From: Lentinus brumalis
Taxonomy: Eukaryota > Basidiomycota > Agaricomycetes > Polyporales > Polyporaceae
Length of the DNA: 64,000 nucleotides
NCBI GenBank assembly: GCA_001792895.1
Contig: MARA01000052.1
Coordinates: forward strand, 1 to 64,000
Direction of reading: 5' to 3'
Position 1 is the stretch's first letter, and the number at the start of each line of letters is the position of its first letter. The notes beneath the pieces were generated by a model that had not been told where the DNA came from, made no database searches, and saw only the letters and a list, made by a program, of their open reading frames with translations. The position numbers and the translations under genes are program-made. Below are positions 19,452 to 21,958 of this stretch, in pieces.

Positions 19452-20270
19452 ATGGTCCTACCGCTCGAGACGCACCGTCCTCCCCGCGAGCCACCAGTAG
19501 CTGACCCCTCTGTCCTACCGTCCTTCGTCCTCATCGCCCCGCCCCGGAGCACGAACCTGCCATCCCTCTGCGATGCGTGGAAGACCGCGCTCGCCGACCT
19601 CCCTCCTGCGATAGCGGCCAAGTTCTCCGTCAAGGAAACCCGCCTCGACCCACCCGCGCTAGCACAAGAGTTCGGGACATTCGACTGCGTCGTATCCCCG
19701 CGAACGCCTTCGGGATCATGGACGGCGGGTGAGTCCTCCTCGCACCCCCAGACTCTCGGGGTCACACCCACCCCGGGCTCGCAGGTACGACCTCGCGCTC
19801 TCCCGCGCCTTCCCCGTCGACGGCGACATCTGGGCCCTCACGAACACCGTGCAGGACGTCCTCCGCGCGCAGCACCGCGGCTACCTCCCGCCCGCCTCCT
19901 GCGCGCTCGTCCCGCTCTCTCGCGCGCTCACGGCGTCCAACGCGCTCGCGTGCACCGTCCTCGCCGTCGTCCCCACCATGCGCACCCCCGAGGACGTCTC
20001 CTGGCACCGCGACCTCGTCTACGACGCCATGTGGAACCTCCTCAGCGCGCTCTGGCGGTGGAACAGCGGCGAGCGGCCGCCGGGCGCGGGCACGGTCGAG
20101 AGGGTGCTCATGACCGGGCTGGGGACGGGCGCTGGGGGAATAGGGTACGACAAGTGCGCGAGGCAGATGTGTCTTGCTGCGCTCAACTTTGCGAGGGGTG
20201 GGGAGAGCGCCCTCGCTGGGACGATGTCATCCCGCGAGCGAAGGAAATGGACGGCACCAGGGCTCTGTGA
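19452..20270 (+). CDS. Macro-domain-like (ADP-ribose-binding) protein, frameshifted in this sequence
   Basis: Resembles fungal macro-domain-like proteins: N-terminal segment to FDCVVS, then the loop (P)ANAFGIMDGG, YDLALSRAF, and a C-terminal half with RVLMTGLGTGAGGIGYDKCA and RWDDVIPRAKEM. Macro domains bind or hydrolyse ADP-ribose derivatives. One intron (19729-19784; GTGAGT to GCAG) interrupts GGY. Two single-base gaps break the frame: the C run at 19696-19699 needs one more C for SPANAF, and the G run at 20200-20203 needs one more G for GGGERPRWDD. With both corrected the protein is continuous to the TGA at 20268-20270. Both are homopolymers, so assembly error is more likely than decay. 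Confidence 0.72.
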   Translation: MVLPLETHRPPREPPVADPSVLPSFVLIAPPRSTNLPSLCDAWKTALADLPPAIAAKFSVKETRLDPPALAQEFGTFDCVVSPRTPSGSWTAGESSSHPQTLGVTPTPGSQVRPRALPRLPRRRRHLGPHEHRAGRPPRAAPRLPPARLLRARPALSRAHGVQRARVHRPRRRPHHAHPRGRLLAPRPRLRRHVEPPQRALAVEQRRAAAGRGHGREGAHDRAGDGRWGNRVRQVREADVSCCAQLCEGWGERPRWDDVIPRAKEMDGTRAL

Positions 20271-20482
20271 GATCTACGCGACAACCCGTGACACCGAAAT
20301 GTAAGTCAAGCACACTTCAGACAACGAGGCGCAAACGTGTGGAGTAGACAAGCCGGCAGGAATAGATTCAGATTGCTGATTAACATGATACAAAGCGCTA
20401 TATAACACAAGAACATGCAGGAACGAGTTGCGACCGAGACAAAGACAACAGACGAGCGAGGGAATACGTGCGCGCGGTGCGC

Positions 20483-21958
20483 CTAGTCGTCGCCGATTTT
20501 GGGTGCGAGGTAGTACCGGATGTGGCCCTGGTTGAACTCGTACGAGACCTGCGAGCCCCCGCGGTGTCAGCGACGCGCCATAGAACAGCCAACACGGCAC
20601 TCACGAGTAGAGGGACGTCGTTGCTCATCATGAGCTGGACCTTCTTCGAGAGCGTGGAGCTCTTTGAGAAGTTGACAAGGTACTTCAAGCTGAAGGTGAG
20701 CGTCACGGCCTGGTTCATCTCGATACGGACGCCCTCAAAGTCGTCGTCCTCGTCATCGTCCTTCTGCTTCTTCGCCTTCTTTGCCGGCTTGCGGGACTGT
20801 ACGCGACCTCAGGCGGGGGGCGCGGAAGAGGAATACGTCGGACGTACCTTGGCAGGTGCCCGCTTGCGCTTCTTGCTGGAGCCCTCGTCATCCTCGTCCT
20901 CGTCCTCACCGTCCTCCTCCTTGGCTGGCTTGAACTCGCCCTCGCCCTCGTCCTCATCGTCGCCGTTCATCTCGACGTCCTCGCCGTTCTCATCCTTCTC
21001 CTCCTTCTTGACCTTCTCCTTCTTGATCTTCTCCTTCTTGATCTTGCCGCCCTCGCCGTCGCTCTCGGCGTCGTCCTCTTCTTCGGGCTCGTCCTCCTCC
21101 TCGTCATCGTCGTCCTTGCGCTTGGACGACGAGCCCTTCTTCGGAGCGGCCTCGGCGGACTGCCTGAGGAGGATGTTGCCGTTGGCGGCCTCGCCGTCGG
21201 AGACGAAGCGGATGCCCTCCTTGGAGACTTCGATGCGGACGGACTCGCCAAGGAGGGAGAGATCGCGGACGATGCGCGAGAACTCGGCAGAAGGGAGGGT
21301 GACGCTGGCGTCGTACTCGGTGTCGGGGATGCCGAGGGTGTCGGCGTCGATGTCCATCAACTTCATCTCGTACTCTGCAATCCTGTCCGTGTCTGTGGTT
21401 GAGGCGCTGAGGTTAGCAGGAGGTACTTAGGGTGGTTCGACGCGACCACTGCGCGAGCCAGCACGCCAGAAGGAGCCTCGGAGCCCAGACGACGCGTCTG
21501 AGGGGAGATTCAGCGGGGAGACACGTACTCTTTGCTTCGTAGGTGAGGGAGAGAATGTCGGCATCGTCTGTTGCCTTGAGGGTGAGAATGTCGTCGTCCT
21601 TGGCGCACTTGAGGACCTTTGTGAGGGAACCGAGGTTGACACCGAGAGGGATTGCACGGTCGCAGCGGTAACGCTTGAAGCCGGAAGCCTCGAGCTTGAC
21701 CGCGACGAGGGCGACGTGGGAGTTGTCCATTGCTTGGAGTGTCTGGCCACAGCAGACGCGTCAACGACCGAGCGACAGAACATGTGCAGAGAACGTACGA
21801 TTGCCTCCTCATTGCACTCGAAGTTGGCGTCGGAGACGAGCTCCTTGACGGCTGGCGCGTCGCGTCGCGTCAGCAGTGGCCACCGGACAATGGGGTGGAC
21901 ACTCACCGTCGAGGAGACGCTTGAGGATGGCGGCCTCGGAGAGCTTCGCTTCAAGCAT
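20483..21958 (-). CDS. PCNA: PCNA (DNA sliding clamp) with a large charged insertion
   Basis: Proliferating cell nuclear antigen, the trimeric clamp for replicative polymerases and repair factors in the nucleus. It starts [16 protein letters not shown] (21958); exons continue [69 protein letters not shown] and end [13 protein letters not shown] (stop 20483-20485), so both domains and the C-terminal signature are present, with five introns. Canonical PCNA is about 260 residues; this one is about 370. Between [10 protein letters not shown] and [12 protein letters not shown], where other PCNAs have a loop of about 10 residues, it carries about 115-125 residues of Asp/Glu runs alternating with Lys repeats ([19 protein letters not shown]) and NLS-like KKRKRAPAK and KKAKKQK. 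The insertion is interrupted by an intron at about 20797-20847. Confidence 0.95.

Follow-up and report, generated by a model that had tools for sequence, protein, structure and literature searches.

A long charged insertion in the back loop of PCNA from Lentinus brumalis and its occurrence in other Basidiomycota

The window, a stretch of 64,000 nucleotides from Lentinus brumalis, carries a PCNA gene on its minus strand. The gene runs from an ATG at 21958-21956 to a stop codon at 20485-20483 and consists of six exons and five GT-AG introns, whose donors read GTGAGT or GTACGT. The product has a subunit mass of 41.5 kDa and exceeds human PCNA (1axc, 261 aa chain) by 112 residues. The following features were assigned.

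20483..21958, minus strand: PCNA gene, coding sequence with five introns, 373 aa (exon joins, GT-AG sites, Pfam PCNA_N and PCNA_C)
21907..21958, minus strand: exon 1 (exon joins)
21799..21851, minus strand: exon 2 (exon joins)
21529..21742, minus strand: exon 3, most of domain 1 (exon joins; PF00705 match)
20848..21392, minus strand: exon 4, connecting loop, beginning of domain 2, and the insert up to its residue 104
21220..21222, minus strand: codon of K164, the conserved ubiquitin/SUMO site of PCNA
20797..20847, minus strand: intron 4, 51 nt, GTACGT...GTACAG, within the insert, in-frame stop if retained
20605..20796, minus strand: exon 5, final 22 insert residues, followed by the larger part of what remains of domain 2
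20483..20548, minus strand: exon 6 with stop codon

PF00705 and PF02747 scored above their curated cut-offs on the window DNA and likewise on the ortholog P0001, and the PF02747 match in the window was split into two pieces around the insert. The protein has the two-domain clamp fold, and the flanks of the insert are intact PCNA clamp core. The original prediction had named a canonical second gene doing the normal work as evidence that would count against it. Searches of the fungus's own assembly (53.4 Mb, 136 contigs) with PCNA_N, PCNA_C and the whole protein, in which the best candidates were scored exon by exon, matched this locus only, and a second gene was rejected. As far as found, the gene encodes the ordinary and sole PCNA of this fungus. 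A pseudogene or an assembly error was rejected as well, given the open frame and the long loop in 117 of the best 120 proteins listed.

A neighbouring convergent gene (19452-20304, plus strand) has an apparent one-base frame shift near 19690-19710, at a CCCC run. FDCVVSP is read in one frame and PANAFGIMDGG in another, pieces that together resemble a macro domain. The shift seems to be either a sequencing error or a sign of a broken gene. The open reading frame piece at 19663-20301 had no Pfam match, and Pfam scans of three frames neighbouring PCNA were likewise without matches.

The insert lies between LLRQ (ending at 21160) and VRIEMN (starting at 20730), takes the place of a loop of about 10 residues and is encoded by two pieces, 21159-20848 and 20796-20731. 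The exon joins, the ortholog model and the site published for Cryptococcus neoformans agree on a large in-frame insertion between strands D2 and E2. In the predicted monomer model of P0001, strands 177-182 and 306-309 flank it. The original prediction had placed about 115 extra residues at 20730-21165, in frame in the short loop of the second domain; this position fits the segment between LLRQ and VRIEMN, and the size agrees with the excess over the human chain. Asp and Glu make up 42% of the insert, Lys and Arg 24%. It is predicted to be disordered, in line with the flexibility first proposed. Intron 4 has good GT-AG sites, and its read-through in the exon-4 frame leads to a stop codon. Since this intron lies inside the segment, with coding sequence on both sides, the segment is not one retained intron, as had been argued from the start. 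Within the insert, three conserved elements were located.

20731..21159, minus strand: insert, residues 185-310 (126 aa), D2-E2 back loop, span including intron 4
20995..21042, minus strand: SUMO-consensus block of three PsiKxE sites that start at residues 224, 229 and 234, a spacing of five, in 15-nt repeats
20962..20979, minus strand: DVEMNG block, residues 245-250 (DVEM-like block in 42 of 63 sequences)
20767..20874, minus strand: bipartite NLS-like segment KKRK...KKAKK, residues 280-298, interrupted by intron 4 (62 of 63 sequences have a KKRK-type motif)

Conservation of these motifs was evaluated in 63 sequences, namely the window and 62 database sequences from different genera (one named only to order); two of them were unparsed in a first count (n=61) and restored in the present one. 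PsiKxE was found in 55 sequences, KKRK-type and KK[AVTSP]K motifs in 62 each, and DVEM-like blocks in 42, counts that are inflated by shared ancestry among sequences that are not independent and that therefore describe conservation and not probabilities. In 40 dipeptide-preserving shuffles the corresponding means were 19.8, 25.9, 37.3 and 12.9, with maxima of 29, 32, 45 and 19. Plain shuffles of 61 sequences gave means of 17.0, 2.1, 12.0 and 5.1. The SUMO consensus is thus present above shuffled expectation, and the NLS-like patches noticed in the original prediction proved to be conserved across orthologs and likewise above shuffles. PsiKxE preceded the last KKRK in 55 of 55 sequences. The order PsiKxE, acidic, KKRK, KKxK, which is defined here and had no precedent in the literature searched, is present in the window insert. 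Its two basic clusters are separated by about 10 residues, as in a bipartite NLS, and a gap of 8-12 residues was found in 52 of the 62 KKRK-type sequences. Based on the motifs that the orthologs carry, chance is excluded as the source of the insert.

Among 105 [VIL]Kxx tetrapeptides in 49 agaricomycete sequences (48 and the window, first eight residues left out), 84 end in Glu. Three lysines, K275, K277 and K291 of P0001, are at least 90% conserved in an alignment of 67 sequences that includes four without the insert. The eight sequences lacking a strict PsiKxE are all tremellomycetes, and 59 of 63 match when Asp is allowed in the last place. VKKE and KKRK are common to the two rusts. A lone PsiKxE match is weak, because the clamp core has such matches too (25 of 62 orthologs; VKLE at residue 50 in the window). 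Naematelia (P0267) has no KKRK, perhaps a gene-model effect. The 15-nt repeats AAGAAGGAG at 21039, 21024 and 21009 (21042-21000, minus strand) encode IKKEK repeats, and slippage at them could alter the number of PsiKxE sites. Identity to Coprinopsis is 0.50 in the insert versus 0.82 in the core, so that the insert evolves faster.

The distribution of the insert was followed with a nearest-protein search, in which only candidates sharing most words were scored and the best 120 of 1,230 matches were listed. Of these 120 proteins, 117 are 328-434 aa long with loop segments of 111-151 residues; the other three are short (258-276 aa). Genera with the insert among the matches listed include Trametes, Ganoderma, Suillus, Boletus, Pleurotus, Armillaria, Coprinopsis and many other agaricomycete genera. 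An oddity of one polypore was rejected, as orthologs occur across many agaricomycetes and in further lineages. A profile search (best 120 of 4,343 matches) added, among the matches listed, Tremellomycetes (302-361 aa), Serendipita, Cantharellus, Exidia and Rhizoctonia, as well as the rusts Phakopsora (382 aa) and Austropuccinia (350 aa). No member of the Ustilaginomycotina was recognised among the matches listed. The loop segment measures 133 residues in the window, 63-121 in 12 tremellomycetes, 142 and 110 in the two rusts and 87-153 in 49 agaricomycete sequences, about 7 flanking residues included. Of a set of 309 sequences, 20 were unparsed and dropped before counting.

The solved ascomycete PCNAs of S. 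pombe (6qh1) and A. fumigatus (8gjf) have no insert. Absence outside Basidiomycota rests on solved structures and on the comparison in PMC9225081, and the short loops of ascomycete, mucoromycote and chytrid records are partly a product of the query length filter (266 aa or less). These data bear out the suggestion that the insertion is specific to a fungal lineage. Because rusts and mushrooms both have the insert, the sequences suggest that it is old in Basidiomycota and arose at or near the base of the phylum, given the basidiomycete branching order. Rusts and mushrooms may also have gained it independently.

Annotated PCNAs without the insert also occur. In the short-form search the query admitted proteins of up to 266 aa, and a match was kept when its identity reached 70% or more across 99% or more of the query. 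Among the matches listed, at least 13 agaricomycete PCNAs (P0047, P0056, P0121-P0129, P0132 and P0135) have annotations of 235-265 aa that leave out the insert. All 13 have an NCBI record, and lgn, jgi or ena is in no case the sole source. In core sequence the database PCNAs of Lentinus brumalis and Polyporus arcularius stand closest to the window; their annotations lack the insert, and both are among the three short proteins of the best 120 listed. For 15 proteins of the same list, the sole source is lgn or jgi, which are unannotated. Each of the 15 is 359-387 aa long, has the insert and runs from the start to a PKIG[DE][DE] end, and for 12 of them the contig does not exceed 1,580 bases. Since the gene described here has five introns, these contigs are most simply cDNA, given what we assume the source labels lgn and jgi to mean.

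In three cases a short record has the same core as long ones (P0121 with P0018-P0020, P0142 with P0248, P0154 with P0298), and the short loops retain pieces of the insert. The core of the Postia short model is identical to that of three long unannotated proteins, one of which is on 34 contigs. We then searched the window DNA, from which that of relatives may differ, for introns that would remove the segment. None of 77 in-frame candidates (11 GT, 66 GC; donors 20990-21200, acceptors 20690-20800) yields the short L. brumalis or P. arcularius protein. The GT candidates share one donor, which lies inside the insert and matches 3 of 6 consensus positions, versus 5-6 for the five real donors. Splicing-out of the segment, against which the original prediction had to be checked, thus appears to have no good sites in the window DNA. 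Because of the NCBI-only records, the identical long cores and the lack of fitting window introns, the short models are most likely prediction errors; some may be true losses or minor isoforms. Gene predictors seem to excise the insert as an intron, which would at least partly explain the 13 short PCNAs. A real loss is possible in Lentinula, Fistulina, Punctularia, Heterobasidion, Irpex rosettiformis, Cytidiella and others.

Several single records deserve mention. Phakopsora pachyrhizi PCNA is recorded twice, without the insert (P0154, 264 aa) and with it (P0298, 382 aa). In P0056 the donor of intron 3 appears to be shifted (KSTYTDR for KNTDR). P0142 is filed under the bird Spelaeornis/Elachura formosa, and P0248, with its identical core, belongs to Papiliotrema laurentii; P0142 apparently stems from a contaminating fungus, and its insert has been removed. 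For Psilocybe cyanescens there are three PCNA-like records (P0132, P0135, P0143), two of them partly degraded, possibly additional copies or pseudogenes. In the partial Rhodotorula record P0147 the loop is short, is without the usual VLLK and is Lys/Glu-rich at its end; this gene model may also have lost an insert.

Computed were the position, the predicted disorder, the intact core, the many orthologs, the cDNA-like contigs and the motif order, and from these we infer a regulatory role. The insert is probably a regulatory disordered arm on the back face of the clamp. On each subunit an old basidiomycete-type arm would loop out at the back, between D2 and E2, leaving the polymerase and loader contacts on the front face free. 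Import of the enlarged clamp would rely on KKRK...KKAKK as a bipartite signal, a function to which we give an even chance. The PsiKxE block would offer sites for SUMO or other lysine modification near K164; that it is a SUMO acceptor is a tentative proposal, more probably wrong than right. Against the regulatory reading stand the commonness of Lys/Glu-rich disorder in nuclear proteins and the working PCNAs of other fungi and of animals, which have no insert. In its furthest form the reading traces the arm to the last common ancestor of all Basidiomycota, whose only clamp would have acquired a disordered back-face extension that carries an import signal of its own and clustered SUMO-acceptor lysines. 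Clamp modification, and with it the control of recombination or translesion synthesis, would then run via a site absent in other eukaryotes. This we regard as rather doubtful.

Three other explanations were weighed. The back loop may simply be permissive and the insert a functionless low-complexity expansion that is tolerated and drifts. The faster evolution relative to the core, the 15-nt repeats, which suggest slippage, and the length range of 87-153 residues in the 49 agaricomycete segments (flanking residues included) fit such drift. Against it stand the KKRK-type and KK[AVTSP]K motifs, each present in 62 of the 63 sequences and more often than in dipeptide-preserving shuffles, the motif order, kept in 55 of 55, and the presence of VKKE and KKRK in both rusts, and we consider drift unlikely. 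The original prediction had thought of a flexible histone- or partner-binding tail; on this reading, Asp/Glu blocks would capture histones or chaperones during replication-coupled chromatin assembly. The acidic content of the insert, and of the 61 parsed segments (29-40% D+E), would suit this role, but the listed positions with at least 90% conservation are the three lysines and not an acidic motif. The most conserved motifs point more to import and modification than to histone binding, and an acidic tail appears distinctly unlikely.

The insert may also be optional, with some transcripts losing it by splicing or 'alternative truncation' and two clamp forms coexisting, perhaps in meiosis. The short annotations are in line with such a loss, and so is the occurrence of AAGAAGGAGAAG, reportedly one truncation site of Coprinus cinereus PCNA, twice in the window (21039 and 21024). 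The second truncation site reported for that protein was not found in the window. The weak shared donor of the GT candidates in the window DNA, the failure of all 77 to give the short proteins, the exclusively NCBI-recorded short forms and the long Postia counterparts also speak against two forms, which we hold to be very improbable. A regulatory arm on the back face remains our preferred reading. PCNA, the ring that keeps DNA polymerase on DNA, is a hub whose size, about 260 residues, is generally regarded as invariable. A clade-wide arm of about 60-150 residues per subunit, with conserved back-loop motifs not far from K164, would mean a mode of clamp regulation peculiar to a large fungal group. 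The insert is often lost from automated gene models, so that mushroom and rust PCNAs in databases should not be taken at face value.

Comparison with known clamps places the protein as follows. Canonical PCNA (S. pombe, A. fumigatus, human) shares the clamp fold and the core sequence but has a back loop of about 10 residues without an insert. C. cinereus PCNA reportedly occurs in an alpha form, whose D2E2 loop carries 107 inserted residues, and in a truncated beta form, of which no counterpart was seen in the window DNA. The title of the article on this protein mentions 'alternative truncation' (Hamada et al. 2002, Eur J Biochem 269:164). The Coprinopsis cinerea ortholog P0107 resembles the window PCNA in length (368 aa) and in its PsiKxE, DVDM and KKRK blocks. 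In the literature searched, 'CoPCNA', and 'D2E2 loop' together with PCNA, had no match. PMC9225081 describes for Cryptococcus neoformans PCNA an insertion of more than 80 residues in the back loop, without a counterpart in the 14 other, mostly non-basidiomycete fungi compared. A loop insertion was thus already published, and the novelty implied by the original prediction does not hold. The C. neoformans protein (P0266) has a charged segment in the same loop, with VKDE matching PsiKxE and with another basic cluster after KKRK; it differs in segment length (104 versus 133 residues) and in having a single PsiKxE. The SUMO sites of S. cerevisiae PCNA are K164 and K127 according to PMC9225081 and PMC4030836, and among the 15 species compared in the former K127 is reported only for S. 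cerevisiae and C. glabrata. The window PCNA retains K164. At the place matching K127 its connecting loop has no lysine, and candidate PsiKxE sites are found in the insert instead; as a speculation, the insert could supply an alternative to the K127 site. No earlier description of the basidiomycete-wide distribution and the conserved motif order was found in the literature searched, outside which most subscription journals lie. In summary, this kind of PCNA is already known and the window protein is another member of it, and what is new is the breadth of its occurrence and the conserved order of its motifs.
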